Shown one piece after another: positions 1,575-53,913 of a DNA stretch of 64,000 nucleotides. The DNA is from an uncultured Myxococcales bacterium (GTDB lineage: Bacteria; Myxococcota_A; UBA9042; DTJE01): NCBI GenBank assembly GCA_903936705.1, contig CAIZWN010000051.1, positions 124,001 through 188,000 of the forward strand. The letters are read 5' to 3'. Numbering within the stretch: the first letter of the stretch is position 1; every line of letters starts with the position of its first letter. A model generated the notes under the pieces. That model was not told the DNA's origin. It did not search any database and worked only from the letters and a program-made list of their open reading frames with translations. Both the position numbers and the translations under genes were made by a program.

Positions 1575-1595
1575 CCCGATGGTAGGTTCCTCGCA

Positions 1596-1614: not shown

Positions 1615-1624
1615 GGTCAGCCAC

Positions 1625-3250: not shown

Positions 3251-3261
3251 CAGCCTGTCGC

Positions 3262-3291
3262 TTGCCGCAAGGCGCTCGGACTCTGTACAAT
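3262..3291 (+). promoter_or_regulatory. candidate sigma-70-type promoter of the GT2 gene
   Basis: TTGCCG at 3262-3267, an 18-base spacer and TACAAT at 3286-3291. The ATG of the glycosyltransferase is 40 bases downstream. It lies in the 80-base gap between divergent genes. Confidence 0.5.
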
Positions 3292-3330
3292 ACTGGTCCT
3301 CCCGAGGCCGGGGGAACCGGGGGTTCCACG

Positions 3331-5579: not shown

Positions 5580-5650
5580 ACGTTGGTGCGCCTATTCGAC
5601 AGACGTCATTGGACAGTTGTCATGGTTTCCGGATGGCCGCCGCCACAAAT

Positions 5651-6526: not shown

Positions 6527-7131
6527 GGGTTACCCCCCTTCCGGCATGCCTTCGTCCCTTCGTCGATGATCAGCCGGACGTCAAGGACTTCCTCGTGTTC
6601 CAGCGCCTCGCCAAGGAGGCCGCATGCGCGCATATCGGCAACCACCGCCAACGCCTGCGCCGCACCGATTCTCAACGCGGCATCATCGTCCTTCAGCCAA
6701 AATCGCAGCTCGTCCACGGCCGACGCGCCAGAAACCCTGGCCAACGCCACCATCGCCGCTGCCCGCAAGGCGGATGGTTCCTGGCGACTGGGGATTATCG
6801 CCGACAGCACAGCCTGGGACCGCCTGCCTGGGTAGCTGCCCAGCGCCTTGGCTGCCTTCAAGCGGATTTCCAGATCCACGGATTTTGCAATCATGAGGTC
6901 GACCAGTACCCGATCAACGTCCTCCCCGGCCCTGGCCAGGTCGGCAGGAGTAGGCGCCTTCTGGAAGCGAAGGATCTTCACAACGTCTTCGATCTTCATC
7001 TGGCCTGCCGGCCGCGAATCCGCATACGCACAGACTGCTGCAAGAAAAGCCGTCAGGAATGACAAGGCGAACATGAGTCGGGATCTCGAAAGAATCCGGG
7101 GCAGGTGCGAGGCCCGCATCGGAATGATCAT
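6523..7131 (-). CDS. exported HEAT-repeat protein
   Basis: A 202-residue protein. A hydrophobic stretch around residues 20-36 (MFALSFLTAFLAAVCAYA) looks like a signal peptide after an unusually long basic lead. The rest is helical repeats of the PBS-lyase/HEAT type (for example IRLKAAKALGSYPG-like and ALRIGAAQALAVVAD). The start at 7131 is chosen because it overlaps the ffh stop (ATGA); an internal ATG at 7074 would give a more standard signal peptide. HEAT proteins usually act as protein-binding scaffolds. The partner is unknown, and position between ffh and dapA does not reveal it. Confidence 0.7.
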   Translation of the reverse strand: MIIPMRASHLPRILSRSRLMFALSFLTAFLAAVCAYADSRPAGQMKIEDVVKILRFQKAPTPADLARAGEDVDRVLVDLMIAKSVDLEIRLKAAKALGSYPGRRSQAVLSAIIPSRQEPSALRAAAMVALARVSGASAVDELRFWLKDDDAALRIGAAQALAVVADMRACGLLGEALEHEEVLDVRLIIDEGTKACRKGGNP

Positions 7132-8666
7132 CGCTTCTTCCGCCCCTTCTGGCGCTGCTTGCGCGCCGCCTTTTCCTTCTTGCGACGACGCTCCTTCTCG
7201 GCCGGAGACAGACGCATGACGCCGTAGCCCGGACCCCAGCCCCCCTGGGGACCCTGTTCCGGAGGCATCAGGTCCGACACGTCTTCGCCGCGCGACTTCG
7301 CAAGATCCAGAGCTTCCTTGAAGCCAGGCAGGCGTGCCAGCAGCGACGGCTGCTTGCCGACCCGCTTCATTACGTCACGCATCGTGTTGAAACGCGCCAG
7401 GAGATCCTTGATTTCTTGAACCTTTCGCCCGGAACCGCGCGAGATCCGCTTCATGCGGCTGTCGTTGATGATCTCGGGCTTTTTGCGCTCGTCCGGGGTC
7501 ATCGAGTGGATCATCGCCTCGATCCGGCCCAGCACCTTCTCGTCCACGGCTGCGCCCTCGGGCACCATCTCGTGGAAGAAGGGCAGCTTTTCCAGCGTGT
7601 CCCGCAACGACCCCATCTTCTGGATTGCGCGAATCTGCTCGAGGAATTGGACCAGGTTGAACTGGCCCTTCAGCAACTGGATCGCGTCCTCTTCGGCCTT
7701 TTCCTGATCAACAACTTTCTCGAAGTCCTTGACCAGTCCGACGACGTCACCGAAGCCCAGTATACGACTGGCGATGCCTTCGGGGCGGAAGGGTTCGATC
7801 TTGCTGAGGTCTTCGCCCATACCGACGAAGACGATGGGTTTGCCGGTGACAGCGCGGACCGACAGGGCGGCGCCACCACGGGCATCGCCGTCCATCTTGG
7901 TCATGACCACGCCGGTCAGGCCGAGACGCTTGTCGAATTCGGACGCCATGCGGACGGCATCCTGGCCAATCATGGCGTCCACGACCAGGAAGATGTTCTT
8001 AGGCTTGGTCAGTTCCTTGATCTGCGCAAGTTCCTGCATCAAGGGTTCGTCAATCGCCAGACGACCCGCAGTGTCGAAGATGACAAGGTCGCGCTTTTCC
8101 GCGATGGCCTGCTTCATGGCTTCGGCGCAAAGCTCGGGCGGCTGCAGGCCGGCACGATGAAAGACCGGGATGCCCAGGCGCTCGCCCAGCACCTTCAACT
8201 GGTCCACGGCTGCCGGACGGTAGATGTCGGCGGCAACCAGCATCGGCCGGTGCTTGCCTTCCTTCATCAGGCCGGCAATCTTCGCTGACGTCGTGGTCTT
8301 TCCGGTGCCGTGCAGACCAACCATCATCACGGCAGTCACGCGGCCGGCCGGCTCGAACTCTATCTGCCGTTCGCCATCGCCCATCAAGGCGATCAACTGG
8401 TCATGACACAGCTTGACGAAGTGCTCGGCCGGCGAGACCTGAACCTTCTTACCGTCCGTCTTGGCCGCCAGTCTGACGACTTCGCCCACGGCCTGGGTCT
8501 TCACATGTTCCAGGAAGGCGCTGACGACGGGCAATGCCACGTCGGCTTCCAGCAGCGAAACCCGGATGTCCTTCAGGGCATCCTCGATCGCAGATTCGGT
8601 GATGACCGTCTTCCCGGCCAGCTTCGCCCGGGCGTTCCTGAATCCCTTCGTGAGGATCTCGAACAT
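7128..8666 (-). CDS. ffh: signal recognition particle protein Ffh (SRP54 GTPase)
   Basis: A 512-residue protein, longer than the usual ~450. An N-terminal helical domain precedes the GTPase G domain with P-loop GLHGTGKTTT, DTAGRL and TKMDGDARGGAALS. The methionine-rich M domain (about residues 325-440) contains SRGSGRKVQEI, matching the SRP RNA-binding SGSG motif. After the M domain is a Gly/Pro patch and a very basic tail ending KQRQKGRKKR, an extension compared with E. coli. With 4.5S RNA and FtsY it targets inner-membrane proteins co-translationally. It heads an operon with the HEAT gene and dapA and has a strong promoter 39 bases or more upstream. Confidence 0.97.
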   Translation of the reverse strand: MFEILTKGFRNARAKLAGKTVITESAIEDALKDIRVSLLEADVALPVVSAFLEHVKTQAVGEVVRLAAKTDGKKVQVSPAEHFVKLCHDQLIALMGDGERQIEFEPAGRVTAVMMVGLHGTGKTTTSAKIAGLMKEGKHRPMLVAADIYRPAAVDQLKVLGERLGIPVFHRAGLQPPELCAEAMKQAIAEKRDLVIFDTAGRLAIDEPLMQELAQIKELTKPKNIFLVVDAMIGQDAVRMASEFDKRLGLTGVVMTKMDGDARGGAALSVRAVTGKPIVFVGMGEDLSKIEPFRPEGIASRILGFGDVVGLVKDFEKVVDQEKAEEDAIQLLKGQFNLVQFLEQIRAIQKMGSLRDTLEKLPFFHEMVPEGAAVDEKVLGRIEAMIHSMTPDERKKPEIINDSRMKRISRGSGRKVQEIKDLLARFNTMRDVMKRVGKQPSLLARLPGFKEALDLAKSRGEDVSDLMPPEQGPQGGWGPGYGVMRLSPAEKERRRKKEKAARKQRQKGRKKR

Positions 8667-8704
8667 CGGCGTGATAGCTCCGCAAAGAAGAATCCCGGCG
8701 TAGG

Positions 8705-8733
8705 GTTATACGGGAGCCGACTGGGTTCGTCAA
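8705..8733 (-). promoter_or_regulatory. strong candidate vegetative promoter of the ffh operon
   Basis: On the minus strand, TTGACG (8728-8733), a 17-base spacer and TATAAC (8705-8710). The ffh ATG is 39 bases downstream. The same hexamer pair with the same spacing occurs before prs. Confidence 0.7.
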
Positions 8734-8790
8734 GGTTGCCCGGGATTCGCCGGCTGCCCCTCTTTTCCAGTTTTCCCGTAGAATCCGGCC

Positions 8791-10365
8791 GTGACGGAAA
8801 ACGGCACAACCATGGGAACCAGTGGCGGACGGCTTGCGGTCATCGGCCTGGACCGCTTGGCGATCCTGCTGGTGTTCCTGGTCCAAGTGTCGGTGTTCCC
8901 TTACTTTCCGGCTCTGAACTCGGCCAATGAACTGTCCCGCCTGTACACCGCATGGGCAATGGTGGACGGCGATCTGGAGATCGGTCCATCGATTGCACGC
9001 TTCGGGGACGTCAACGACAAGTCGAAGGTTGCAGACTCGTTCTTTTCGGACAAGCCACCTGGTACGGCGTTTCTTGCTGTTCCAGGAATCGCGCTGCGGC
9101 AGGCGCTGGGAGGCGACAGGGATGCGGCCGCCGACCTGCGGATTGCACGACTGCTGGCAAGCATTCTGCCGACGCTTTTCCTGCTGATGATGCTGCGGAT
9201 CGAGATGTCAGAACGCGGAATTTCCGCGCCGACAAGGGCCCTTGCAATTGCCACTTACGGTCTTGGCACGCTGGGGTTCACCTACGGGGTGCTGTTTTAC
9301 GGACACCAACTTGTGGCCGTGCTGGTGTACGGAACCTGGTTCGCCCTGCGCCGGCAGACGATCGGACCGCAAAGCGCCGCCATCGCCGGATTCCTGGCTG
9401 GACTGTGTGTCGCAACCGAATACCAGTCGGCGGTCTACCTTCTGCCTCTGGCAGCAGTATTCCTGGTACGGGCTCGTCCCATTGGGCCGGCCCTTGTGGC
9501 CGGTCTGGCGGGAGCCGCGACACCGCTTGCCGCATTGGCAGCATTCCACGCCTCGGCCTTCGGGGCGCCATGGAAGACCGGATACTCGTTCGTGGCCAAC
9601 CCGTTCTTTGCCAAAGTACATGCGCAAGGATTCATGGGAGTTCTTTCGCCACGCCTGGTTCCGTTTGCCGGCAGCCTGTTTTCTGCGTCCAAGGGCCTTC
9701 TTGCGTGGTCGCCCTTCCTGGCATTGGGATTGGCCGGAATGGTGTCGCACATACGCACGTCGTCGACGCGCCTGGACAGATGGATCAGGGTTTTCCAGGT
9801 AGGCTTGCCAGTCCTGTTCGTGTCGTCGATGGTCTACTGGGACGGCGGATGGACGGTAAGCCAGCGCCACCTGACGCCCATGGTGCCGTTCCTTGTAGCG
9901 CCCGCAGCCCTGCTGATCCAGCGCTCAAGTATTGCCGCCATCGTGGCACCGGGGCTGGCCGCGGCATCGGTGATGATGACTGGCCTGGCGACGGTTGTCT
10001 TCCCTCACCTTCCCGAGAACTGGTCCAACCCCTTCCACGATCTGGTGATCCCCCTGGCCGCGGGCGGCTGCTGGGTGCGGACTTCCCTTGGAATCGAACT
10101 TCCGTCGGTGGCGTTCCTGTCTGCTGCGGCAGGCGCGTTTCTTGTGCTGGTGACGGCCTCGATAGCCTGGGGGCCGCTGGGACGCATGCGAACAAAAATG
10201 ATCGCAGTGGTCCTGATGGCCATGATCCCACTGGCGTGGTTCGATGGGACATCCCGAATCGCGCGCCGAGCACCGGCCGAGGCCGCAGCGGAACGCGTCT
10301 TCTTTGTCGGACAATGCAAGGCGGCTGGCCGCTGGGATGCCGGGGTCACTCAATCACGTCAATGA
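8791..10365 (+). CDS. polytopic membrane protein, GT-C/ArnT-PMT-like glycosyltransferase candidate
   Basis: A 524-residue protein with about eleven hydrophobic segments. The first large loop contains NELSRLYTAWAMVDGD and FFSDKPPGTAFLAVP, resembling the acidic first loop and KPP motif of ArnT/PMT-type GT-C enzymes that move sugars from polyprenyl-phosphate carriers. Later segments have the FYGHQLVAVLVYG and YWDGGWTVSQRHLTPMVPF features seen in large-membrane-protein relatives. The specific donor and acceptor are unknown. Start is GTG 8791 or ATG 8812. A TAGAAT at 8779-8784 would place transcription start almost on the GTG, so the message may be leaderless or begin at 8812. The 3' end overlaps the convergent thymidine phosphorylase by 20 bases. 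Confidence 0.65.
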   Translation: MTENGTTMGTSGGRLAVIGLDRLAILLVFLVQVSVFPYFPALNSANELSRLYTAWAMVDGDLEIGPSIARFGDVNDKSKVADSFFSDKPPGTAFLAVPGIALRQALGGDRDAAADLRIARLLASILPTLFLLMMLRIEMSERGISAPTRALAIATYGLGTLGFTYGVLFYGHQLVAVLVYGTWFALRRQTIGPQSAAIAGFLAGLCVATEYQSAVYLLPLAAVFLVRARPIGPALVAGLAGAATPLAALAAFHASAFGAPWKTGYSFVANPFFAKVHAQGFMGVLSPRLVPFAGSLFSASKGLLAWSPFLALGLAGMVSHIRTSSTRLDRWIRVFQVGLPVLFVSSMVYWDGGWTVSQRHLTPMVPFLVAPAALLIQRSSIAAIVAPGLAAASVMMTGLATVVFPHLPENWSNPFHDLVIPLAAGGCWVRTSLGIELPSVAFLSAAAGAFLVLVTASIAWGPLGRMRTKMIAVVLMAMIPLAWFDGTSRIARRAPAEAAAERVFFVGQCKAAGRWDAGVTQSRQ

Positions 10366-11644
10366 ACGTCTGACCGACTTCGATTACCTGGTCACCTATG
10401 GAATAGGCCGAGTGCACCATGTACTCGGCCTCGGAAAGCCCCCTTGAATCGTTGAACATCAATGTTACGAGCGGCTGGCCACAGACAACCGGATCGCCCA
10501 GCCGCACCAGTACACGAAGGCCCACCGCGGGGTCTATCCCGTCCTCCTTGCGCCTTCTGCCACCGCCCATTGCCACCGCAGCCAGCCCCAGCAGTTCGCA
10601 GTTGATTGCCTGCACCACGCCGCCGCGACCGGCCCGCACATCGACCTGATTCCGGGCACGCGGCAACAAGTCCGTGTTATCGACGACGGCCGGGTCGCCC
10701 CCCTGGAACTCAACCATGCGCCTGAACGTCTCCAGCCCGCGCCCATCGGCGATTGCCGCCCGGATCAACGCCTCGCCTTCCGTCTGAACGCTTGAGACTC
10801 CCCCCAGAACCAGCATCCGCCCGCCCAAAGTCACAACAAGTTCCACCGTGTCAGCAGGTCCTGCCCCCCGCAGCACCTCGATGGATTCCTCGATCTCCAG
10901 AGCATTGCCGACCGCCCATCCGATCGGCTGGTTCATGTCGGTCAGATAGGCGACTGTCCTGACGCCCGACCTGGTTCCCAGGCCAACCATCGTCCGAGCC
11001 AGCAGCGTGGCCTGCTCGCGGGTCTTCATGAACGCCCCCGAGCCGACCTTCACGTCCAGCACCAGGCCCGAGATCCCCTCGGCCAGTTTCTTGCTGAGGA
11101 TTGATGCCGAAATCAGTGGAATCGATTCCACCGTGCCGGTCACATCCCGCAGTGCGTACAGACGCTTGTCGGCAGGGACAATCGACTCGGTCTGGCCAAC
11201 CATGCAGGCACCTATTGTCCGAACCCCCTCAAGAAAGCGGGCCGGCGACAGGTCCGTCCTGAAACCTGGAATGGACTCCAGCTTGTCCAGAGTCCCCCCG
11301 GTATGGCCAAGCCCGCGACCCGAGATCATCGGGACCCGTACGCCGCATGACGACACCAGGGGTGCCAGCGGAATCGAAATCTTGTCTCCAACGCCCCCGG
11401 TGGAATGCTTGTCCACCTTGGCACCGGACAGATGCGACATGTCGAAAACGTCTCCCGAGTGCAGCATCGCATCGGTCCAGACAACAAGTTCGTTGTCATC
11501 CAGACCGCGGAAAAACACCGCCATCAGCAACGCTGAAGCCTGGTAATCGGGGATCGAACCGTCTGTGACACCCGCGATAACCTTCCTGATTGCCTCAGGT
11601 TCGAGGGTGCCTCCGTCACGCTTGTGCCGGATCACGTCCGCCAT
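10346..11644 (-). CDS. deoA: thymidine/pyrimidine-nucleoside phosphorylase
   Basis: A 432-residue protein that cleaves thymidine (or uridine) with phosphate to base plus (deoxy)ribose 1-phosphate for salvage. Key motifs are DKHSTGGVGDKIS in the phosphate-binding region and MISGRGLGHTGGTLDKLES, the class II nucleoside phosphorylase signature. A C-terminal beta domain (GDPVVCGQPL) is typical of the family. The ATG at 11644 is preferred over one at 11650 because a GGGGG ribosome-binding site lies at a better distance. It is the third gene after hisS and the MXAN_5187-like gene. Thymidine versus broad pyrimidine specificity cannot be separated by eye. Confidence 0.93.
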   Translation of the reverse strand: MADVIRHKRDGGTLEPEAIRKVIAGVTDGSIPDYQASALLMAVFFRGLDDNELVVWTDAMLHSGDVFDMSHLSGAKVDKHSTGGVGDKISIPLAPLVSSCGVRVPMISGRGLGHTGGTLDKLESIPGFRTDLSPARFLEGVRTIGACMVGQTESIVPADKRLYALRDVTGTVESIPLISASILSKKLAEGISGLVLDVKVGSGAFMKTREQATLLARTMVGLGTRSGVRTVAYLTDMNQPIGWAVGNALEIEESIEVLRGAGPADTVELVVTLGGRMLVLGGVSSVQTEGEALIRAAIADGRGLETFRRMVEFQGGDPAVVDNTDLLPRARNQVDVRAGRGGVVQAINCELLGLAAVAMGGGRRRKEDGIDPAVGLRVLVRLGDPVVCGQPLVTLMFNDSRGLSEAEYMVHSAYSIGDQVIEVGQTFIDVIE

Positions 11645-17593: not shown

Positions 17594-19264
17594 TCAGAGG
17601 CAGTCGATAGCAACGGTGTGGTAACCCGAAGCCTGGTCGTTGAAGTCCCCCACGACAATGAAGTAGGGCATCCCGGCAACCACTGACAGCGTGGTCGAAG
17701 GATCCTCAGCGACCGAACTCCCGATGCAACCGGCAGGGTTGCAGGCACCGGACAAGACATAGAGGTTGAACTCATCCGGGGGCCAAGGTTCGTCCTCATG
17801 CACGACAAAAAAGCGCACCAACCCCGTCGCTGTTGCCGTAAATGAATAGACATGGCTGTACAGGTAGTTGAGGCTGTCGCCGCAGGCGCTCCCGGTAACA
17901 CCGCGGCTGCCGTTGTATTGACCGAACAGTCGAGTACCGCAAACCATTGTATCCGCGACACGCCAACTGCACTCGTCAGTCGGACACGGAGCAACGCCCG
18001 CGCAATCGGGGTCCTGGCAGTCAGTCAGGCCGTCGAAATCCTCGTCCACGACGTCGCCGCAGTTGGACTCCGAAGCAGGGCAGTCACCGCAGTCCTGCGG
18101 GCATGTCAGGCAGTTCTCGCCGGCGGTCCAGCAGGTGCCATCACCGCAATCTACGCACTGAATGGTACCGGAAGCACAGGCACCCAAGGCGCAACGGTCG
18201 CCGACGGTACAGGCATTGCCGTCATCGCAAGCCAGCGCATTGGAAAGATGAATGCACCGGTTTCCGGAACAAGAGTCGTCGGTACACACATTGTCGTCAC
18301 CGCACTGGGCAGCAGTACGACATTCGCATGTATCGGGACCTGCGACGCATGTCGTCCCTACGCAGGTATCAGGCGTGGTGCATGAGTCCCCGTCGCTGCA
18401 AGCGCCGATTACGGGCGAATAGGTGCACTTGTGGGCGGCATCGCATTTGTCCAGCGTGCATTGGTTCCCGTCGCCGCAATCCGCGTCCAGCCTGCAGTCG
18501 CAAACCATGTTGCCCAGGCAGGTACCCAGCGCACAGGTGTCACCCGACGTGCATGAATCGGAATCGTCGCAAGACGCCGTATTGAACGGGTAAACGCACG
18601 TACCGGCGTTGCAACGTTCGTCGGTGCATGGATTGGTGTCGGAACAATCCCCGTCAACCTTGCATGCACAGGTCCAGGGACCCGGCTGGCACGTCCCGCC
18701 CTGGCACTTGTCCCCGGTAGTGCATGATTCGCCGTCCTGACAGGTCGTCCCTTCCAGTCTTCCCGAATCCAGGCGGCAGTGCCGCGTCGCAAGATCGCAC
18801 GCATTCGAGCGGCATGTCAGGCTGAACGAAGGATTGCAGTGGCTGTCGTTCAGGCACCAGCAGGCAGTGTCGTCCGGCGCGCAGGCTCCAACGGCAACAG
18901 GTATGTCCTCGCCTTGATCGGCGACCGGACCCGGATCCGAAGGAATATCGTTAGAAACCCCGGGATCCTCCGAAATTACATCCGGCGGGCCAATGTCATT
19001 TGCGTCTGCCGAGGTAACATCAACGTCCGCTCTTTCGACATCATCCGCCAGGGTATCGACGTGGCTGGAATCACGAGGGCTGTAATCATCAGGCACGTCC
19101 TGGCCGCCAACCTCGTGCACGTCCGGACGCACCACGACGACCGGCAGGTCAGACGCCGCAGACCCATCTGGCACCACAGCACTGCAGCCGGCAGCCACGG
19201 CCACCATCACTGCCAGCACCGCGCCACACCGGCGCCACGTTGCCGAAACGATTCTGTCAGCCAA
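17594..19264 (-). CDS. surface lipoprotein with seven CTDC-type cysteine repeats and a PPC-like C-terminal domain
   Basis: A 556-residue protein. A signal peptide ends with the lipobox AAGC. Residues ~35-120 are an Asp/Val-rich linker (for example DVHEVGGQDVPDD). About seven repeats of the form CxDxxxCTxxxxC follow (such as CGDDNVCTDDSC), matching the Dictyostelium CTDC repeat family. After a CPQDCGDC region and a DEDFDGLTDCQDPDC segment, the last ~120 residues (YSFTATATGLVRFFVV onward) resemble a PPC/bacterial pre-peptidase beta domain. The start is TTG with GGGGGG just upstream. Likely an adhesive or structural surface protein; function is unproven. It is a shorter cousin of the 1813-residue protein at 47.7-53.1 kb. 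Confidence 0.75.
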   Translation of the reverse strand: MADRIVSATWRRCGAVLAVMVAVAAGCSAVVPDGSAASDLPVVVVRPDVHEVGGQDVPDDYSPRDSSHVDTLADDVERADVDVTSADANDIGPPDVISEDPGVSNDIPSDPGPVADQGEDIPVAVGACAPDDTACWCLNDSHCNPSFSLTCRSNACDLATRHCRLDSGRLEGTTCQDGESCTTGDKCQGGTCQPGPWTCACKVDGDCSDTNPCTDERCNAGTCVYPFNTASCDDSDSCTSGDTCALGTCLGNMVCDCRLDADCGDGNQCTLDKCDAAHKCTYSPVIGACSDGDSCTTPDTCVGTTCVAGPDTCECRTAAQCGDDNVCTDDSCSGNRCIHLSNALACDDGNACTVGDRCALGACASGTIQCVDCGDGTCWTAGENCLTCPQDCGDCPASESNCGDVVDEDFDGLTDCQDPDCAGVAPCPTDECSWRVADTMVCGTRLFGQYNGSRGVTGSACGDSLNYLYSHVYSFTATATGLVRFFVVHEDEPWPPDEFNLYVLSGACNPAGCIGSSVAEDPSTTLSVVAGMPYFIVVGDFNDQASGYHTVAIDCL

Positions 19265-44034: not shown

Positions 44035-45015
44035 ATGGATCGTGCTCGCCTGGCTGCCACCTTGATAGTGATGCTGCAGGTTCTTGCCGCCTGTGGCCCA
44101 TCATCGCCTGACGTGGATGACAACTCCCGACCAAAGGCGCTGCGGATCAGCCCCGGGGTTCTGGTCAAAGACTCCATCGATGCCCGCCGAGACCCGATCG
44201 ACTGGAAGGATTTTTCCAACTATCAGGACGCCCGCGTGACCGTGGTGTTCTCGTTCGGCGACCGTTTTACCCCCCACGGGCTGCAGGGCGAAATCTCGCT
44301 TTTCGATTTCGATGGCAGCGCCCTTCAAAACCAGCGGGTTGTCCCGGGAACGGTTGACTACAAATTCACGCTCGATGTCCGGAAGGACAAGGACTACTTC
44401 TTTCGCGTCGAGGCGCGCAAGGGCAAGGCCGGCTATCTGGTCGAGACCCGAACTGAACCGCTGGACCAGTGCGCGGCCTGCGGCCCGGGTACCACCTGCT
44501 GCCCGGGTTCGGGAACCTGTTGTGGCCGCGGCCAGGCCTGCCGTGAGGGCGCCTGCGTGGCAGCAGCCTGCGCGCCGCCATGCCGACGCGGCGAGGTCTG
44601 CGAGGCAGGCCGGTGCGAGGAAGCCTGCCCGGGCGGGTGTCACAAGGGCAAGGTATGCGACGCATCGGAACGCCGGTGCGTGACGGCAGCTCCAACCGAG
44701 CCGAAGACCGAAGCCCCCGCAAAGAAAGGCTGCCCGCAGTGCGCAGCAGGACAGGCCTGCAACGAGGAAACATCCCGTTGCGAGTCGGTCGCAACCGGCA
44801 TCACAGCTGCTGTAATCAGTGTGGTCGAGGAAGGCAGCGGCATCGTGATCATAATCAACCGGGGCAGCCAGGACGGCGTTCGGCCCGGAGCATCCGGACG
44901 AGTTGGCGGACTGTCGTTCACGGTACGCGACGTGGGGGCCACCAAGTGCAAGGCATTCATTGCCGCCAAACCGTCCCAGGTTCCGCAAAAGTCCAGGGTC
45001 ACGATCGACAAGTGA
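44035..45015 (+). CDS. cysteine-rich lipoprotein of unknown function
   Basis: A 326-residue protein with a signal peptide and lipobox LAAC. The region after it (about 35-145) is a beta-rich domain with an FDFDGSALQNQRVV segment. About residues 145-250 contain ~25 cysteines in short spacing (CAACGPGTTCC, CRRGEVCEAGRC), a knotted, disulfide-rich stalk. The last ~70 residues (ITAAVISVVEEGSGIVIII, RGSQDGVRPG) are a small beta domain resembling the C-terminal conserved module of some deltaproteobacterial lipoproteins. GGAGG precedes the ATG. Confidence 0.65.
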   Translation: MDRARLAATLIVMLQVLAACGPSSPDVDDNSRPKALRISPGVLVKDSIDARRDPIDWKDFSNYQDARVTVVFSFGDRFTPHGLQGEISLFDFDGSALQNQRVVPGTVDYKFTLDVRKDKDYFFRVEARKGKAGYLVETRTEPLDQCAACGPGTTCCPGSGTCCGRGQACREGACVAAACAPPCRRGEVCEAGRCEEACPGGCHKGKVCDASERRCVTAAPTEPKTEAPAKKGCPQCAAGQACNEETSRCESVATGITAAVISVVEEGSGIVIIINRGSQDGVRPGASGRVGGLSFTVRDVGATKCKAFIAAKPSQVPQKSRVTIDK

Positions 45016-45030
45016 CGGCCCGCGACAGCC

Positions 45031-46338
45031 TCAACCCACCGTTTCCGTTGCCGCTTCCTTTTCCGTTTCCGTTTCATTTTCCGGATCAAGAACCTGGGCG
45101 GCATGGATTTCCGGCGCAGACGACTGACTCACCTTCTTGACCGGGTCAACCCCAATCAGGATCTCCTCGGTAGCGGCGACGGCATCATTGATCATGGCCT
45201 CGATGTCGAAACGCTCTTCTATCGCCCTGGTTGGTTCCAGGCGCGCAGCGGTCTCGGGGTGCGGAGGCACGAACAGGGAACAGCAGTCCTCGTAGGGCAG
45301 CACCGAGGTCCGGTATGTCTTGATCTGCTTGGCGATTACGATGGTATCCAGCTTGTCGAACGCCAGCAGAGGCCGCAGCACCGGCAGGCCGGCAGCCTCC
45401 TCGATTACGGACATGTTTTCCAAGGTCTGGCTGGCCACCTGTCCCAGATTCTCGCCCGTAACCAGTGCCAGCGCCCCGGCATTCTGGGCAAGTCGAGTCG
45501 CAATGCGAACCATCATCCGACGATACAAAACGACCAGCATCCGCCCGGGCGCCCGGTCGCGCAGCTCGGCCTGCACCGACGCAAACGGCACCACCCAAAG
45601 GCGCATCGACGCCTGGTACGCCGCCAGCATCCCGGCCAGCGTCTCGACCTTGGCCCGCGCCTGGGCCTTCGTGTATGGCGCCGCCTCGAAATGGACCGCG
45701 TCCACGTCGCATCCGCGCCGCAACATCTGCCAGCCAGCCACCGGCGAATCAATCCCCCCCGACAGCAGCAGCAGAACCCGGCCTGCCGTACCGACCGGCA
45801 GACCGCCCGGCCCCTTCACGGTCCGCACCGACAACATTGCCACACGCGACATGATGCGCACGCCAATCGAGACCGCCGGGTCCTTCATCCGACCTGGAAC
45901 CTGGTGTTTAATCCACACCTGCCCGCCCAGCCGCCGCGCCAAGTCCATCGAAGACAGCGGATACTCCTTGTCGGCTCGCGAGGCCTCGATGCGAAACGAC
46001 GCGGCACCAGCCACGTGTTCGTCCGCAATTTTCATCACCTCGGTCTCGATGACGCCAATCTCGCGGGGCACCAGACGACACGGCGAGTAGTTCTGGATTC
46101 CGAAGGATCTCGCGAGGGCCTCTTCCAGTTCCGGCGTCACATCGATGTCGGGCAGACTGGCCCCCGACGCCTCGCGATTCAAGACCAACAGGTGGTCGTG
46201 GTCCTCGCGAACCCGGTACGAACCAGCCTGGCGAACGTTGCGTTCCAAAGCCTCCTTCATGCGCGCAATGAACCAGGCCTTCCGGCCGCCCTTCAGAAAC
46301 ACCTCGGCAAAACGCACCACCACGGCATTACAAGTCAT
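45031..46338 (-). CDS. thiI: tRNA 4-thiouridine synthetase ThiI (no rhodanese domain)
   Basis: A 435-residue protein. The N-terminus has a ferredoxin-like/THUMP region (about residues 1-170). The PP-loop pyrophosphatase motif LLLSGGIDSPVAG is intact. The catalytic AANH domain ends with YEDCCSLF, containing the conserved cysteine. The E. coli C-terminal rhodanese domain is missing; instead there is an acidic tail (ENETETEKEAATETVG). It adenylates and thiolates U8 of tRNA and may also supply sulfur to thiamine. ATG 46338 follows AAGGAA. Without rhodanese, another sulfur carrier is required. Confidence 0.92.
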   Translation of the reverse strand: MTCNAVVVRFAEVFLKGGRKAWFIARMKEALERNVRQAGSYRVREDHDHLLVLNREASGASLPDIDVTPELEEALARSFGIQNYSPCRLVPREIGVIETEVMKIADEHVAGAASFRIEASRADKEYPLSSMDLARRLGGQVWIKHQVPGRMKDPAVSIGVRIMSRVAMLSVRTVKGPGGLPVGTAGRVLLLLSGGIDSPVAGWQMLRRGCDVDAVHFEAAPYTKAQARAKVETLAGMLAAYQASMRLWVVPFASVQAELRDRAPGRMLVVLYRRMMVRIATRLAQNAGALALVTGENLGQVASQTLENMSVIEEAAGLPVLRPLLAFDKLDTIVIAKQIKTYRTSVLPYEDCCSLFVPPHPETAARLEPTRAIEERFDIEAMINDAVAATEEILIGVDPVKKVSQSSAPEIHAAQVLDPENETETEKEAATETVG

Positions 46339-46432
46339 CTTGTTCCTTCCGTTCGTTGGAGAAACATTACGCGTGCCGCATGCGGGGTACGAATCGACCG
46401 GGATACCCGCACCGGGAACCTGGACAAAACAC

Positions 46433-47416
46433 TCAACTCCGCCTGCGCACGGACGGCGGAAACAACTCGGACATCGATGTTCCGTCGTGAATGCACTCGA
46501 TGGCGCGAGCAAACAGGGAAGACAAGTCCATGACCTCGAAACGGTCCTCGAACCCCTTCACCTTGTCAGCCACTGGAAGCGTGTTACCCACGATGATCTT
46601 CTCGATGGGGGAATTGACCAGCTTGGCTACTGCGTTGCCTGAAAAAACAGGATGAATCGCAGCAGCAACCACCTTTCTGGCGCCAACATCCAGCAACTTG
46701 TGCGCCGCTTCGATCAGCGTTCCCGCAGTGGTGATTTCGTCATCGACAATAAGGCACGAGCGGCCCTTGACGTCGCCGATGACCTGGCGAACGACAGGCT
46801 TCTCGGAATGGTCCGTGCGAGCCTTGTCCATTATTGCAACCGGCAGGCGCATCTCGTCGGCGTAGTACGCAAAAGCCTTGGCGGCGCCGGCGTCGCCGAA
46901 CACAAGGACCCAGTCCTCCTTGCCCTGCTGCCGAAACAGCACGTTATTGAAATAGTCGAAGAAGATCGGCGCGGCCAGCAGTTGATCCATCGGGATCCGA
47001 AAGAATCCCATGATCTGCGGCGAATGCAGGTTCATGGACAGGACTCGATCCGCTCCGGCGGTCTGCAGCAGGTCTGCCACCAGACGGGCGGTCACCGAAA
47101 TTCGAGGTTCGTCCTTCTTGTCGGACCGGCAGTACGGGTAGTAGGGAAGCACCGCGGTAATACGCGCAGCCGAGGCGTATTTGAGTGCGTCAATGAATAT
47201 CAGCAACTCGACAAGGTTGTCGTTCACCGGGGTCGAGGACGTCTGGATTACGAACACGTCCTTTTCCCGAACGTTGTCCTTCAACCGCACCATGATGTTT
47301 TCGTTCGAAAACCTCAAGGACTCGCTGCACCCCAACGGCTTCCCCATGTGCGCAGCAACCCGTTGTGCCAGGTCCGAATGGGACGACCCGGAGAAGACGA
47401 GCATATCGGCTTTCAT
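46433..47416 (-). CDS. prs: ribose-phosphate pyrophosphokinase
   Basis: A 327-residue class I PRPP synthase that makes PRPP from ribose 5-phosphate and ATP. Motifs: the N-terminal VFSGSSHSDLAQRVAAH, the SSTPVNDNLVELL loop, and the PRPP signature LIVDDEITTAGT; YYPYCRSDKKD and SVTARLVADLL are also conserved. The glutamate in VRLKDNVREKDVFVIQ is normal. ATG 47416 has GGAGG upstream. A strong promoter lies ahead; thiI follows downstream by 94 bases. Confidence 0.96.
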   Translation of the reverse strand: MKADMLVFSGSSHSDLAQRVAAHMGKPLGCSESLRFSNENIMVRLKDNVREKDVFVIQTSSTPVNDNLVELLIFIDALKYASAARITAVLPYYPYCRSDKKDEPRISVTARLVADLLQTAGADRVLSMNLHSPQIMGFFRIPMDQLLAAPIFFDYFNNVLFRQQGKEDWVLVFGDAGAAKAFAYYADEMRLPVAIMDKARTDHSEKPVVRQVIGDVKGRSCLIVDDEITTAGTLIEAAHKLLDVGARKVVAAAIHPVFSGNAVAKLVNSPIEKIIVGNTLPVADKVKGFEDRFEVMDLSSLFARAIECIHDGTSMSELFPPSVRRRS

Positions 47417-47457
47417 GGCGTGCCTCCGATTCAGCGAGGGGCTCATTGGGCGCCGAC

Positions 47458-47652: not shown

Positions 47653-50600
47653 CTATGGGCAGTTCGAAATAACCACGTTCAGACAACGCCCCTGTTCCGG
47701 TTCGCAACGGTCGATGGTGCACGGATTGTTGTCGTTGCAGTCCTTGGCAATATGCTGCACGAACCCGGTCTCGATGTCGCAGGAATCAATCGTGCAGGCA
47801 TTATTGTCATCGACAATCTTCGGAATGCTGACACACCGGCCAAGGATTGGCTCGCACGAATCCACCGAGCACGGATTGCCGTCGTCGCAGTCCTTACGCT
47901 GGAACAGGCAGCGACCAGTCACTGGCTCGCACGAATCCTTCGTGCACTGGTTCAAGTCACTGCACACCTTCGGCAAGTGTGTACATCCAAGGCCCGCCAC
48001 GCATGAATCGACAGTACACGGGTCGTCATCGAAGCAGGTCTTGGGAGTCACGATGCAGGCACCGGTATTTGAATCGCATGCCGAGTCGGCGCAGGCACCT
48101 GGCGCCTGACATGTGACAGGAGCGTGCTCGCATTGGCCGTTCGTCTGATTGCACGAATCCACGGTGCAAGGATCGTCATCGTTGCAGTTCTTCGGGATGA
48201 AGGCGCAAGCCTGGGTCATCTCGTCGCAGGAATCGATGGTGCACGGATTGCCGTCGTTGCACGTGCGGCAGACCGACTGGCAGGTGCCTCCATTGCACGA
48301 ATCGGTCGTGCACCCATTCTTGTCATCACAATCCGAGGCCTTCAAGCAACTCTTGATGGGCTGCGACGAACATCCGCACGTCGGCAGACACGTATCCCGA
48401 GTTCCTACCGTGTTGTCGTTGCAGTCAAGCGCCTCGTGCACGCAACCCAACTGCGATTGCGAACAGAAATCCTTGGTACACGGATTGCCGTCGTCGCAGT
48501 TCACTGGCTGGTAGTCGCAGCCGCACGTGCCTGGATTGCAGGTACCGATGGTACATGGGTTGTTGTCGTCGCAAGTAACAGGAGTCTGGAGGCAAAGCCC
48601 GGTCACGGCATCACACAAGGCGTTGAAGCAGCAGTCGGTCGCCTCGCATACAACTGGCAGATAAGTGCATGTTCCGTCAGCGTTGTTGCACGAATCGGCA
48701 GTACAGGCGTTTCCGTCCGAGCAGTCAACCGGACTGGACGCGCAATCGCCACTGCCAAGATCGCACCGATCGATCGTGCAAGCATCAAGGTCGTCACAAA
48801 CGACCGGGGTACGAGAACACTTGCCCGTCAGCGGGTTGCACGAATCAACCGTACAAAGGCTGCCGTCATCGCAGGAAATATCCGTGTGGACACACCCCAG
48901 CAATGGATTGCACGAATCCATCGTGCATGGGTTGCCATCGGTGCAGGTCATCTGGGTGTGTGAACAACGCCCGTCAGCCGGACTGCAACTGTCGGCCGTA
49001 CAAATATCGCCGTCGTCGCACGTCTTCGTCTGGTGAACACAACTCCCGTTCAGAGGGTTGCACGAATCGATTGTGCATGGGTTCAAGTCATCGCAATTCT
49101 TCGCAACATTCGAGCAGGTGCCATCCTTCGAATCGCACATGTCGATGGTGCAGGCGTCATTATCGTTGCACAGCAGCGGGTCGGCCGGGTACTCGCACGC
49201 GCCAGTGGTCGAATTGCAATGAATCTTTTCGCAACTATTGCCCTTGAAGCAATCGCTGTCGCCAGTGCACTTCGGACAGGTCGGGGGGTTGGCCACGTAT
49301 CGGTGGCGGCAGCCGATCGTGTCATCGCAGAAGTCGGTAGTACAGGGGTCGGAATCATCGCACGTCAGGTCGATGTGCATATGGGTGCAGCCGGTCAAAG
49401 TACTGCAGGTATCAATCGTGCACATCGTGGCGTCATCGCAGGAAATCGGGTCAGACCTGCACTGCCCTGTTCCCAAATCGCAGGAATCGGAGGTGCACGC
49501 ATTGTTATCATCACACTTCAGATCGGTGTACGAACAACGACCGTTAGACATGTCGCAGGCCGACACCGTACATGGCAGCCCCTGATCACAAACCTTGTCT
49601 ATCCTCAGGCAGTTCCCTGTGAACGGCGAGCAGACGTCAAAGGTGCATTCGTTCCCGTCGTCGCACGAGACCGGGGTCCAGACGCACTGTCCGGTCCGCG
49701 AGTCGCATTGGTCCGTCGTACAGGGATTGCCGTCATCGCAATCGACCGCGACCGAGTCGCACGAACCCGAACTCTGATCGCAGAAATCAATCGTGCAACG
49801 ATCCAGATCGTCACACGCGACTGGCTGGAACTTGCAAAGCCCCGTGGTCGGGTCGCATCCGTCGCGTGTACAAATGTTGCCGTCGTCACACACGATAAGC
49901 TGGTAGGAACACGTTCCAACACGCGAATCGCACAAGTCGACCGTGCAGGGATTCTGGTCGTTGCAAGCTCGCGGAGTGAAGACGCACGCCCCGGTACGCG
50001 GGTCGCAGGTGTCGATCGTACAGAAGTTATGGTCGTCGCATCCTATCTCGCGATTCGCGCACTGGCCGGTCGATGGCTCGCACACGTCATAAGTACACTT
50101 GTTGCCATCATCGCAGTCCTTGCCGCAGACGTATCCGCAGACCCCGGTTGACTTGTTGCAGGTCGAGGTCACACACCTGTTTTCCGGCGTGGCGCACATC
50201 GCATCACTGGTGCAGAAGAAATTATTGCACGCAGGCTCGGTGACATTCTTGAACGGCAGGAAAACCGCGCCGCCACACGCGGGATCGCACAGGTCACGAG
50301 TGCACTTGTCGCCATCCGACTTGAAGGCCATTACGTGTCGGCACGCCCCGACCCCATCACAGGCGTCCCCGGTGCAGATGTCACCGTCGTCGCAGTTGTA
50401 AACCTGATTCAGGCACTTGCCAGTCCCGGGATCGCAGAAGTCCATCGTGCATGGATCGGCGTCCTCGCAGTTCCTGACCACCCACTTGCACTTGCCTTCG
50501 GGGTTGGTGCTCGTGTCGCACACGCCCGTCGTGCAGGGGTTCTGATCCACGCAGTCCGAATCGCCATTCGGACACGTGTCGCACGGCGGAATGGTCACCT

Positions 50601-53094
50601 TGGTATGAATGCAGCCAACGCCCTGCACGCAGGAGTCGGACGTACACTGGTCATTGTCGTCACATGGTTCGTCGCGATGCTCGCAGGTTCCTGAAACATC
50701 GTTGCAGTAGTCGCGGGTACAGGGGTCCTTGTCGTTGCAATCTCGCACCTTCATCTTGCAGGATCCGTCCAGCGGATCGCAGTAGTCGTCGGTACAAGGG
50801 TTGTTATCGGTACAGAACGTCGCGTCATGCACACAACCATCACGCAGGGTGCAGTAGTCGGTCGTACACAGACTGTCGTCCTCGCAAGTGTTGGGACGGA
50901 ATTCGCAATTGCAATTAACTACATTGCAGGCGCCTGACATGCACGGGTCGCCGTTGTTGCAAACCAATGGCACCCACTCGCAAAGGCCGTTGGGGTCGGC
51001 GTCAAGGTTGCAGCGACCCATCGAACAGCAGTCTGGCGCCAGCTTGCAATCAGCGTTCTTCGCGCAATGCTCACACGTGGCGATATCGACGTGCGAGCAC
51101 ATGCCGGTAGATGGATTGCACGAGTCGTTGGTGCAGGCATCAAAATCGTCGCAGTCCTTGGGAGTGAACACACATACGTTGCTGAAACTGCCCACGCTGC
51201 ATCGTGCGGCAAGGCAGGGGTTGGTGTTTTTCGCGATGCACTCGGAATCCCTGCCAGTCTTGCACTCGACGCATTCCGCCGGGCCATTCTGATCGAAATT
51301 GTGTCTGCACGAACCGGTGTAGAGATCGCAGGTATCCAGGGTGCAGACATTTGCATCGTCACAGTCCTTCGGGACCTGTTCGCAAGCGCCGGTGTCCAGA
51401 TTGCACCTGCCGGAAGCGCACAACGACTCGTTCTGGCAATCGCTGTCCTTCTGGCAACGAACCCAGCACTCGGGGATGTCGATGTGCCGACAGCCGACAC
51501 CGGTTGCGCAGTAGTCCAGTGTACATGGGTTCGAATCGTCACAAAGTTCCCTGATGTTGCGACACCTTCCAACCGGGCAGGTGTCCGCCGTACAAACATC
51601 GCCGTCATCGCAGTCACGGTCTGCAACGCATTCCTTGCCGCAATTTGGGATAGCCGTGTACACGCAACCATTCTGGGCCGAACAGCCATCGCGGGTACAT
51701 GGGTCGCCGTCATCGCATGAGGCAAGCTTCAGGGCGCACGGCCCGGTCGGACTGGTGCAATAGCCTTCTCCGCAACTGCCGACTATGTCCTGGCACTCCT
51801 TGTCCGTGCAAGGCAGCCCTGCCGCCGGCAGCGTGACGTTTCTACACCCAATATTCGGGTCGCAGGAATCGAAGGTAGTCGGGTCGTTGTCCTCGCAGTT
51901 TCGCAAGGTGTAGCTGCAAATCAGGTCGCCGCTAGCGCAGGTCCCACTGGAGGCGCCCGCGATGCACGAATCGATCGTGCATTTGTTGCCGTCATCGCAC
52001 TCGACTGATTCCACACCCACCGCAGACGCGGCCGTGCACTGACCACAAACGCAGTCGTGCTGGCACCCGCCGGCAGCGGTGCAACGATCGGCCGTACAAA
52101 GATTCCCGTCATCGCAGTTCGTTGGCGCGAAGTTGCACACCTTCATCGTGCACTGCCCGAGAACCTCGTCGCATGTCCCGCCTTCCGGACACGCCGTATC
52201 ACGCCCGCATACGACAGACCCTCCCGACATCGGCACGGTAACGCATGTTCCGTCAAAGCACTTTGGATTCGGGTTGGCGTCGGCCAGATTGCAACTGTCG
52301 TCGGTATCGCAGGGCGTGCACTGGGTGGTCTGTGTGTGCTCGCACTTCGACGTGGTGACATCTACCTCGATGCATTTGTCGATCGTGCACGGGTTGTAGT
52401 CGGTGCAATCGAGCGGCACGTTGGTAACCTTGCCGGAAGCGTCGCAGCTGTCGATCGTGCAGGGGTTCAGGTCGTCGCAATCCGCGCACGGAAGATGCTT
52501 GCAAACCTTGCCGGTTCCGGGACATTCGAAACTGGGCAGGCCGGGGCCGGTCTTCGGGCAGGCCGTGCAGACATACTGGTCACAAGGGTTGTTGCCGGGA
52601 CTTGCACACTGGTCGTCACTGGAACAGGGCACGCATGCGAAATTTGGTTCGTTCTCGATAAATATGTATGTACAGGCCGGCAAATCGGGGGACGGGTTGC
52701 ACACGCTGTTGGTGGTGCAGTCCAGACCGTCATCGCAATCGCGGTCCCCAAAGGTGCAAACGCTGTTCTCGCACTTTCCGATCCTGCACTGGTTGGCCGG
52801 ATCAGCGGGACACTGCATGTCCTCGGTGCATGTGACATCCGGCACAACGTCCAAAATCCCTTCCTGGCCAGGAAGGTCGGCAACATCACCGGTCTCGGAT
52901 GTGTCGCGGCCAGTTTCTGATTCCTGGCCGTCGCCGTTGTCTACGGCATCGACCGGAACGTCCGTGATTGCATCCCCCTGGTCGTCAACTACAGGGACAT
53001 CATTGACCGGAGAGGTTGAACTGGAGCAACCTCCAGCAGCCAGAACCACAGCAAGGAACACAACCGACAACACCCGCCTGGTTCCAATGGCCAT
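47653..53094 (-). CDS. giant surface lipoprotein built of about 48 CTDC-type cysteine repeats
   Basis: A 1813-residue protein. The signal peptide ends with the lipobox AAGGC (Cys23). Residues ~24-88 are an Asp/Val-rich linker (DVPVVDDQGDAITDV). From residue ~120 to the end, repeats of about 25-40 residues follow the pattern CDDxxxCTxDxC (for example CDDGNPCTKDFC), which is the Dictyostelium CTDC repeat type; about 48 cores were counted by hand, the last ending at the C-terminus. Disulfide-rich repeats in this number suggest a long rigid surface fibre or adhesive stalk. GAGGAGG precedes ATG 53094, and a good promoter lies upstream. No other domain is visible. The antisense strand carries long open frames because of codon bias in the repeats; they are not genes. 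Confidence 0.85.
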   Translation of the reverse strand: MAIGTRRVLSVVFLAVVLAAGGCSSSTSPVNDVPVVDDQGDAITDVPVDAVDNGDGQESETGRDTSETGDVADLPGQEGILDVVPDVTCTEDMQCPADPANQCRIGKCENSVCTFGDRDCDDGLDCTTNSVCNPSPDLPACTYIFIENEPNFACVPCSSDDQCASPGNNPCDQYVCTACPKTGPGLPSFECPGTGKVCKHLPCADCDDLNPCTIDSCDASGKVTNVPLDCTDYNPCTIDKCIEVDVTTSKCEHTQTTQCTPCDTDDSCNLADANPNPKCFDGTCVTVPMSGGSVVCGRDTACPEGGTCDEVLGQCTMKVCNFAPTNCDDGNLCTADRCTAAGGCQHDCVCGQCTAASAVGVESVECDDGNKCTIDSCIAGASSGTCASGDLICSYTLRNCEDNDPTTFDSCDPNIGCRNVTLPAAGLPCTDKECQDIVGSCGEGYCTSPTGPCALKLASCDDGDPCTRDGCSAQNGCVYTAIPNCGKECVADRDCDDGDVCTADTCPVGRCRNIRELCDDSNPCTLDYCATGVGCRHIDIPECWVRCQKDSDCQNESLCASGRCNLDTGACEQVPKDCDDANVCTLDTCDLYTGSCRHNFDQNGPAECVECKTGRDSECIAKNTNPCLAARCSVGSFSNVCVFTPKDCDDFDACTNDSCNPSTGMCSHVDIATCEHCAKNADCKLAPDCCSMGRCNLDADPNGLCEWVPLVCNNGDPCMSGACNVVNCNCEFRPNTCEDDSLCTTDYCTLRDGCVHDATFCTDNNPCTDDYCDPLDGSCKMKVRDCNDKDPCTRDYCNDVSGTCEHRDEPCDDNDQCTSDSCVQGVGCIHTKVTIPPCDTCPNGDSDCVDQNPCTTGVCDTSTNPEGKCKWVVRNCEDADPCTMDFCDPGTGKCLNQVYNCDDGDICTGDACDGVGACRHVMAFKSDGDKCTRDLCDPACGGAVFLPFKNVTEPACNNFFCTSDAMCATPENRCVTSTCNKSTGVCGYVCGKDCDDGNKCTYDVCEPSTGQCANREIGCDDHNFCTIDTCDPRTGACVFTPRACNDQNPCTVDLCDSRVGTCSYQLIVCDDGNICTRDGCDPTTGLCKFQPVACDDLDRCTIDFCDQSSGSCDSVAVDCDDGNPCTTDQCDSRTGQCVWTPVSCDDGNECTFDVCSPFTGNCLRIDKVCDQGLPCTVSACDMSNGRCSYTDLKCDDNNACTSDSCDLGTGQCRSDPISCDDATMCTIDTCSTLTGCTHMHIDLTCDDSDPCTTDFCDDTIGCRHRYVANPPTCPKCTGDSDCFKGNSCEKIHCNSTTGACEYPADPLLCNDNDACTIDMCDSKDGTCSNVAKNCDDLNPCTIDSCNPLNGSCVHQTKTCDDGDICTADSCSPADGRCSHTQMTCTDGNPCTMDSCNPLLGCVHTDISCDDGSLCTVDSCNPLTGKCSRTPVVCDDLDACTIDRCDLGSGDCASSPVDCSDGNACTADSCNNADGTCTYLPVVCEATDCCFNALCDAVTGLCLQTPVTCDDNNPCTIGTCNPGTCGCDYQPVNCDDGNPCTKDFCSQSQLGCVHEALDCNDNTVGTRDTCLPTCGCSSQPIKSCLKASDCDDKNGCTTDSCNGGTCQSVCRTCNDGNPCTIDSCDEMTQACAFIPKNCNDDDPCTVDSCNQTNGQCEHAPVTCQAPGACADSACDSNTGACIVTPKTCFDDDPCTVDSCVAGLGCTHLPKVCSDLNQCTKDSCEPVTGRCLFQRKDCDDGNPCSVDSCEPILGRCVSIPKIVDDNNACTIDSCDIETGFVQHIAKDCNDNNPCTIDRCEPEQGRCLNVVISNCP
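47656..52737 (-). repeat. tandem CTDC repeat array
   Basis: About 48 imperfect cysteine-repeat units encoded in one frame. Units differ at most codons, so the array is old or under selection for divergence; no identical adjacent units were noticed. Confidence 0.8.
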
Positions 53095-53133
53095 GACTAA
53101 CCTCCTCGCCCGGGAACGATCCAAACCGCAAGA

Positions 53134-53156
53134 CCTGGGTGTAAGACGCACCCAGG
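53134..53156 (-). promoter_or_regulatory. hairpin in the leader of the giant repeat gene
   Basis: CCTGGGTG (53134-53141) and CACCCAGG (53149-53156) pair perfectly over eight bases with a seven-base loop. It would lie about 20-45 nucleotides into the leader transcript. Confidence 0.42.
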
Positions 53157-53183
53157 CCAAAACAAGTCGCGCGCAATGCGCAG

Positions 53184-53213
53184 ATCATACCAGAACGAAT
53201 CGAACGTGCACAA
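53184..53213 (-). promoter_or_regulatory. candidate promoter of the giant repeat gene
   Basis: On the minus strand, TTGTGC (53208-53213), 18 bases, TATGAT (53184-53189). Confidence 0.55.
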
Positions 53214-53252
53214 TCCATTTTGCCCGTAGCTTAAGGATTCCCCTCGCTATTA

Positions 53253-53283
53253 TGGGAACCACGATTCCCAGGTAAGCCTGGGA
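53253..53283. promoter_or_regulatory. two overlapping palindromes, possible operator
   Basis: TGGGAA (53253-53258) can pair with TTCCCA (53265-53270), and TCCCAGG (53266-53272) with CCTGGGA (53277-53283). The shared central arm makes the two mutually exclusive. They lie upstream of both divergent promoters, so protein binding is more likely than an RNA switch. Confidence 0.35.
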
Positions 53284-53374
53284 CATTCGCAACCGGCCCA
53301 TGAGCATCGAAAGCCAAGTTCCAAATTGACCGCCGCGGTCAACGAACCCAGGCCGGCGAGCCAGACCGGACGTC

Positions 53375-53403
53375 TTTACAGGACGCGGGTTTATACCTAG
53401 AAT
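53375..53403 (+). promoter_or_regulatory. candidate promoter of the PEGA-like protein gene
   Basis: TTTACA (53375-53380), 17 bases, TAGAAT (53398-53403); the ATG is 43 bases downstream. Confidence 0.6.
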
Positions 53404-53445
53404 CGCGTCAGGCTGTGATCAACTCACCGGCACGGGAGGTGACCC

Positions 53446-53913
53446 ATGAGAACGTTTGGCACATTCGTAGGTTCCATGGCGTTGGCGGTAATGCTGTCGG
53501 CAGGTGCGATTGCCGGCGAGAAGGCAGATACGGCGGTGCCAGCCTCACCAACCCCGGATCAGGTGTCGATCGGAGAGGTTAGACTAAACCTTTCATCAGA
53601 CTACGCGAAACTTCTGGTGGACGGAGATACCTGGGAGGAAAGCGAGTTCTTGAACAAGGGCATGCTGCTTATCATCCACAGCTTCAGCCGAACTTCCGAG
53701 CACACGTTGCACCTGACGCCGATCTACAGCGATCTCGCTCCCGTTGAACTGGTCGTCAAGGCCGATGATTGGAAACTGGTCACAGTCGGCAAGAACGAGA
53801 AGATGTGGCGTGTAGAACGGAAGGTCACCTTCCCGAAAGCCGCACCGAAGACTGCGCCCAAGGCCGAACCAAGCCAGCCATCCACGGCCCCTGCCACCCC
53901 GAAGGGAAACTGA
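53446..53913 (+). CDS. exported small protein with a PEGA-like domain
   Basis: A 155-residue protein with a signal peptide (about 1-23, ending IAG). The middle (about 45-110) has VRLNLSSDYAKLLVDGD and PVELVVKADDWKLVTV, resembling the beta-sandwich PEGA domain of surface proteins. The last ~30 residues are a Pro/Ala/Lys-rich tail. GGGAGG precedes the ATG. It probably resides in the periplasm; the role is unknown. Confidence 0.6.
   Translation: MRTFGTFVGSMALAVMLSAGAIAGEKADTAVPASPTPDQVSIGEVRLNLSSDYAKLLVDGDTWEESEFLNKGMLLIIHSFSRTSEHTLHLTPIYSDLAPVELVVKADDWKLVTVGKNEKMWRVERKVTFPKAAPKTAPKAEPSQPSTAPATPKGN

Follow-up and report, generated by a model that had tools for sequence, protein, structure and literature searches.

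A giant CTDC lipoprotein gene and its flanks

The window, meaning the whole 64,000-nucleotide stretch analysed here, encodes on its reverse strand a 1,813-residue lipoprotein built of CTDC repeats (Table 1). An AGGAGG motif at 53101-53106, invariant upstream in five orthologues, precedes the ATG at 53094, and the frame runs from there to 47653. Dicty_CTDC (PF00526) is the sole Pfam-A family in the protein; it matches 42 stretches with an E value of 2.5e-197, which excludes chance, and the curated profile scores 638 bits for a cut-off of 27. The leader reads ...VVLAAGG followed by C23 and fits the canonical lipobox of a bacterial lipoprotein, the corresponding boxes of orthologues being MAA/C, FVA/C and LFG/C; lipidation of Cys23 is predicted from the sequence. 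Leader and Asp-rich linker are both present in all seven complete orthologues. The protein contains 275 cysteines, namely lipobox Cys23 and 274 others. An earlier note on this DNA had described a CTDC lipoprotein of this length with a lipoprotein leader, an Asp-rich linker and no other domain, and this description holds, as regards other domains at the level of Pfam.

The same note had credited the gene with a dedicated divergent control region. What lies there is an ordinary 351-bp divergent promoter region, in which the sole promoter-like match, a sigma-70-like TTTACA-17-TAGAAT at 53375-53403 on the + strand, stands in front of the neighbouring gene. Blocks conserved among congeners are short. 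An A+T-rich stretch, GGTATGAT in the window and TGATAAAAT in congeners, could be a candidate -10 element of the CTDC gene.

Table 1. Features of the CTDC lipoprotein locus (window positions).
Feature	Position	Strand	Basis
thiI, syntenic marker	45031..46512	(-)	Pfam PF02568; adjoins prs in 9 further genomes
prs (ribose-phosphate pyrophosphokinase), syntenic marker	46433..47446	(-)	Pfam PF13793; adjoins CTDC gene in 9 further genomes
CTDC lipoprotein gene, 1,813 aa	47653..53094, stop codon included	(-)	Open frame; AGGAGG; Pfam PF00526 only
Last module with terminal extra Cys1812 (probable cap), residues 1786-1813	47656..47739	(-)	Cys1812 conserved in 7/7 orthologues
Module without Cys1 and Cys4, residues 1761-1785	47740..47814	(-)	Instance of Cys1-Cys4 co-loss
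Module without Cys2, then single probable capping Cys (joint), residues 1558-1588	48331..48423	(-)	Cys2 loss coupled to odd extra Cys in following module
Second regular ladder run, 7 modules, residues 1309-1482	48649..49170	(-)	Module table
Joint module with two probable capping cysteines (CPKC, 1273-1276), residues 1273-1308	49171..49278	(-)	Extra cysteines in 6-7/7 orthologues
Longest regular ladder, 11 CTDC modules, residues 994-1272	49279..50115	(-)	Module table; AlphaFold2 994-1244
Cys-rich N-terminal part, CTDC and non-CTDC modules mixed, residues 88-365	52000..52833	(-)	Cysteines conserved in 8 orthologues; AlphaFold2 86-480
Asp-rich, Cys-free linker (tether), residues 24-87	52834..53025	(-)	Composition alike in all orthologues and most CTDC paralogues
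Predicted lipoprotein signal peptide, residues 1-23, ending at Cys23 (AAGG/C)	53026..53094	(-)	Sequence; orthologue boxes
Divergent intergenic region, 351 bp	53095..53445	.	One sigma-70-like match; short conserved blocks only
Small secreted protein, 155 aa, conserved neighbour	53446..53913	(+)	No Pfam match; same place in seven other family genomes

Module layout

Tiling by a core pattern yields 50 CTDC cores, most of the modules being 24-25 residues long, and about 12 Cys-rich modules of different spacing; about 48 repeats had been counted before. The array had also been called almost unbroken, which is apt for the long CTDC runs but not for residues 88-365, where the modules of other spacing mainly lie, nor for about ten later joints placed at intervals. 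The array is heterogeneous. The consensus of 565 distinct regular 25-mers has four cysteines per 24-25-residue repeat and a CTxDxC core, with Asp3 in 98% and Asp10 in 90% of them. Such conservation would suit a rod in which these two aspartates bind calcium and set the stiffness, as in thrombospondin type 3 repeats, with disulfides secondary. Both residues may, however, simply cap turns, and bound calcium would not be exclusive of a cystine ladder; we consider a rod stiffened mainly by calcium unlikely.

Orthologues and conserved gene order

Full-length orthologues of the protein show 42-54% identity. Nine other genomes of the family (ten with that of the window) also have a giant CTDC gene immediately ahead of prs and thiI, and in seven of these nine a small divergent secreted protein flanks its other side; judged by gene order, the place beside prs-thiI is an old, fixed locus. 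The 155-residue secreted protein, kept divergent beside the CTDC gene across the family, is a candidate partner. In most family relatives thiI faces a convergent gene for a Cys-rich lipoprotein without a Pfam match (44035-45015, + strand, in the window).

Counted from the lipid-bearing cysteine, the short form found in the window's genus has 1,791-1,806 residues, the long form of four genomes in three sister genera 3,294-3,315, and the one orthologue outside the family 3,731. The short form stops at residue 1,808-1,813, exactly where the long form continues for about 1,500 residues more. Because the outgroup is long as well, the simpler reading, and the one we infer, is that the window's genus lost the distal half. 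Between residues 743 and 1808 eight orthologues align almost gap-free across genera. Compared with the nearest relative, repeats at collinear positions have 14.3 of 25 residues in common and non-collinear ones 10.0. A cysteine column is retained in 6.5-7.0 of 7 orthologues, a residue of another kind in 2.7. The gap-free register, the collinear likeness and the conserved cysteines together imply that the module layout is under constraint and is not freely expanding. Repeat shuffling or recent expansion was ruled out, as orthologues are in register and collinear repeats are the more alike. The lengths fall into two classes, near 1,800 and near 3,300 residues beyond the anchor, and vary little within each, which suggests that rod length matters.

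Cysteine wiring deduced from natural losses

Losses of cysteines were counted in about 3,000 repeats, drawn from a discovery set of 82 proteins and a replication set of 37 further proteins that share no tested 40-residue stretch with the first. The four cysteine positions carried no weight in the scan matrix, which allowed unbiased detection of repeats that lack cysteines, and loop-length artefacts were removed, most first-pass single losses of Cys3 or Cys4 being shifts in loop length. Local alignment to a profile HMM was dropped for this count because it trims repeats whose end cysteines are missing.

In the discovery set 45 repeats have lost both Cys1 and Cys4 where 3.2 were expected (p = 4e-48), and in the replication set 20 where 1.0 was expected (p = 9e-27), the replacements being mostly Val, Ile or Thr. 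Eighteen separate losses of this pair were left after similar repeats had been grouped at 60% identity, so relatedness does not explain the coupling. Among pairs in neighbouring repeats only Cys2 of repeat i and Cys3 of repeat i+1 stand out, with 2 joint losses against 0.01 expected (discovery, p = 6e-6) and 7 against 0.10 (replication, p = 6e-16); all nine Cys3 losses that have a preceding neighbour repeat come after a Cys2 loss in that repeat. No other pair was enriched in the replication set, and none in the discovery set apart from six scanned repeats lacking all four cysteines, which inflate the remaining intra-repeat pairs. The Cys1-Cys4 coupling was found before the paper on the Entamoeba lectin discussed below was read, and the inter-repeat coupling after it. 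As both couplings were replicated, the rod is probably a cystine ladder, with Cys1-Cys4 bonds within each repeat and Cys2(i)-Cys3(i+1) bonds between repeats.

Cys1-Cys4 coupling would fit equally well with Cys2 and Cys3 also bonded inside one repeat, which would give independent stapled hairpins and no ladder; two neighbouring repeats lacking both Cys2(i) and Cys3(i+1) would still have Cys3(i) and Cys2(i+1), which could then pair by swapping. Yet no repeat loses Cys2 and Cys3 together except those without all four cysteines, the coupled partner of Cys2 is Cys3 of the next repeat, and caps at array ends and joints are not expected without inter-repeat bonds, all of which makes closed intra-repeat wiring distinctly improbable.

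A ladder bonded from Cys2(i) to Cys3(i+1) leaves one unpaired cysteine at each end of a run. Where Cys2 is intact, the linker to the next repeat has no extra cysteine (983 cases) or two (204) and seldom one (27); where Cys2 is lost, it has one extra cysteine in 23 cases and none or two in 9 (odds ratio 112, p = 5e-28). These counts cover linkers with 0-2 extra cysteines, three-cysteine cases being mostly out-of-register repeat frames. On this pattern, the conserved joints probably carry capping cysteines.

Leaving aside the lipid-bearing cysteine, seven of eight orthologues have an even number of cysteines, as do 29 of 41 CTDC lipoproteins (p = 0.01); the other 12 of the 41 have an odd number. 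Profile searches of the genome found DsbA-type and VKOR-type genes, and one 452-codon frame on the same contig, 16 kb from the CTDC gene, matches both. This VKOR-DsbA fusion, a fused disulfide-forming enzyme, lies at G000:C51:193274-194449, about 5 kb past the right end of the window. A composition of 15% cysteine with many acidic residues might also be that of a thiol or metal store, its cysteines reduced and binding metal or buffering the redox state; against this stand the specific pairwise losses, the excess of even counts, the export leader and the VKOR-DsbA oxidase gene, and we regard such a store as highly improbable. The even counts, the coupled losses and the fusion gene, together with the hairpin array predicted by AlphaFold2, support the disulfide-stiffened fibre that the earlier note had proposed.

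Predicted structure and solved look-alikes

AlphaFold2, run on residues 994-1244 with 23 related segments, gave a pLDDT of 92.9 and two strands per repeat, so that each CTDC repeat is modelled as one confident hairpin; the pTM of 0.55 fits a long string. The model of the N-terminal part (residues 86-480) is of lower confidence (mean pLDDT 79.8). For both models Foldseek gave significant matches in the PDB only to the Entamoeba Gal/GalNAc lectin, in its heavy chain (E = 1.4e-8 for residues 994-1244 and 3.2e-4 for residues 86-480). The match to the lectin arm at E = 1.4e-8 has a probability of 1.00 and a TM score of 0.21, a low value (about 0.2) that a flexible string would be expected to give, as would a purely local resemblance. 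A search of a viral structure library returned one weak, local and uninformative match. Neither single-sequence nor profile queries gave a significant match among PDB sequences, and no solved structure was found for PF00526, of which an earlier contact-based model had low quality (PMC8078820).

The Cys-rich arc and arm of the Entamoeba heavy chain (PDB 9gjf, 9gjc) likewise consist of 4-Cys beta modules in a chain. In the arm these small modules have Cys1-Cys4 bonded inside and Cys2 and Cys3 bonded to neighbours, the inter-module bonds being described as Cys3(i)-Cys2(i+1), and 3-Cys modules mark the place where the arm may flex (PMC12948311). The intra-module pairing thus agrees with the co-loss in the window's family, whereas the inter-module direction differs, co-loss here pointing to Cys2(i)-Cys3(i+1). 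The Entamoeba arm also has three strands per module and is a short arm on a lectin core, while the CTDC array is predicted to have two strands per repeat. By analogy, the two may share a building principle; they are not filed as one family, because the described bond direction is opposite and there is no sequence relation. Granulin (epithelin) modules, too, are hairpin stacks held by a disulfide ladder, but they differ in cysteine order and pairing and form closed domains of six bonds each, unlike the open-ended CTDC array.

CTDC proteins in the genome and the lineage

The CTDC profile has 147 matches in the window's genome. Twenty-six frames carry at least three CTDC motifs and 19 reach the Pfam cut-off, giving at least 19 CTDC proteins, and most of the frames start with a lipoprotein leader and an Asp-rich linker. 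Extra domains on CTDC or related Cys-rich frames include FGE-sulfatase, NHL, CotH, lamin-tail (LTD), P-domain, FG-GAP and TIG. CTDC thus looks like a general stalk, to which paralogues add domains of enzyme, propeller or binding type. Of the nearly pure CTDC stalks in the genome the 1,813-residue protein is the longest (another, L042, has 1,455 codons), and the Pfam scan identified no binding domain in it, only Dicty_CTDC. Most likely it is almost all stalk, one of many proteins on the same stalk in the lineage.

Among 284 genomes sampled from the phylum, CTDC matches occur in all 52 listed from the window's class, with counts that are mostly lower bounds and reach at least 2,969 first-look candidates in one genome, and in 115 of the 232 outside it, where they are fewer and patchy. 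Those relatives that bear a name are MAGs of uncultured deltaproteobacteria or myxobacteria, their isolate labels including Baikal-deep and NC_groundwater. The literature searched yielded no paper about CTDC proteins in bacteria.

Several further frames were observed. A second CTDC-like lipoprotein in the window (17597-19264, reverse strand, 556 aa) scores 16.7 bits, below the Pfam cut-off, and has a like leader and Asp-rich linker. L056 carries three tandem CTDC lipoprotein genes at 1171-10457 whose C-terminal parts are related. In L048 a lipoprotein of 3,138 codons combines lamin-tail and P-domains with 16 CTDC-like motifs not called by Pfam. CTDC frames of 4,630 to 5,312 codons, far exceeding the window protein, occur in other families of the class (L098, L099, L101). 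Two MAG records titled Klebsiella pneumoniae (L013, L022) carry CTDC lipoproteins like those of myxobacterial MAGs, and the label is almost certainly wrong.

Proposed rod, its location and role

The gene likely encodes a lipid-anchored, oxidised, jointed rod made of a CTDC ladder, most likely on the cell surface. A signal peptidase II leader would anchor the rod through Cys23, and the Asp-rich tether would connect the anchor with about 50 CTDC modules, every one of them a single beta-hairpin. Within a hairpin Cys1 would be stapled to Cys4, and between hairpins Cys2 of one (i) would bond Cys3 of the next (i+1), so that the cystines would form a continuous ladder. Joint modules would break this ladder at about a dozen conserved positions, their extra cysteines capping the loose ends. 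These joint modules are likely hinges. Standing on the cell surface, the rod would be a long, protease-resistant stalk or fibre, and may serve as stalk, coat or fibre in cell-surface, cell-cell or matrix contact. The ladder with conserved joints, the many CTDC proteins of the genome and the ancient syntenic locus, with a product twice as long in sister genera, all go beyond the earlier note.

The lipobox and the Asp-rich tether do not tell the outer leaflet from the periplasm. The lipoprotein leader is the only localisation signal, no surface-export system was identified, and a protein so long could also span the periplasm or line it, as a structural rod between the membranes, on an inner face or along the cell wall. 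Against that placement, paralogues on the same tether carry domains of surface or extracellular type (CotH, LTD, FG-GAP, TIG and P-domains), and orthologues of about 3,300-3,700 residues would hardly fit extended across the periplasm. We therefore think a periplasmic rod rather unlikely and favour the cell surface.

In amoebae, the CTDC proteins of Dictyostelium form long arrays with a role in the extracellular matrix (PMC4931340, PMC9117722, PMC4406040), one of them, EcmA, probably strengthening the stalk (PMC4931340, PMC4406040). The family of EcmA, EcmB, PdiA and PsiA (PF00526) has, by profile, the same 24-25-residue 4-Cys repeat in long arrays; the window protein differs in its bacterial lipid anchor, Asp-rich tether, capped joints and a register fixed across genera. 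By analogy with EcmA and with the Entamoeba lectin arm, which is part of an adhesin, a role in adhesion or cell-cell contact, as suggested earlier, is plausible, whereas nothing found supports the suggested role in predation. Tentatively, and with some doubt, the open-ended hairpin cystine ladder with programmed joints may be a structural kind found alike in social amoebae, in the arm of the Entamoeba lectin and throughout an uncultured bacterial class, forming the general surface-stalk set of that class, with joint positions and rod length selected like a blueprint. The derived cysteine wiring gives a repeat family common to bacteria and amoebae a prediction that is precise and can be tested, and a lineage-wide stalk with varied terminal domains, with its giant pure-stalk member beside prs-thiI, offers an entry into the surface biology of the class.

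TraA of Myxococcus is a cell-surface receptor with Cys-rich repeats (PMC13184517), and the likeness lies in such repeats on a myxobacterial surface. TraA has a variable recognition domain and a MYXO-CTERM tag, whereas the window protein, by Pfam scan and module table, is without both and ends in a CTDC module.
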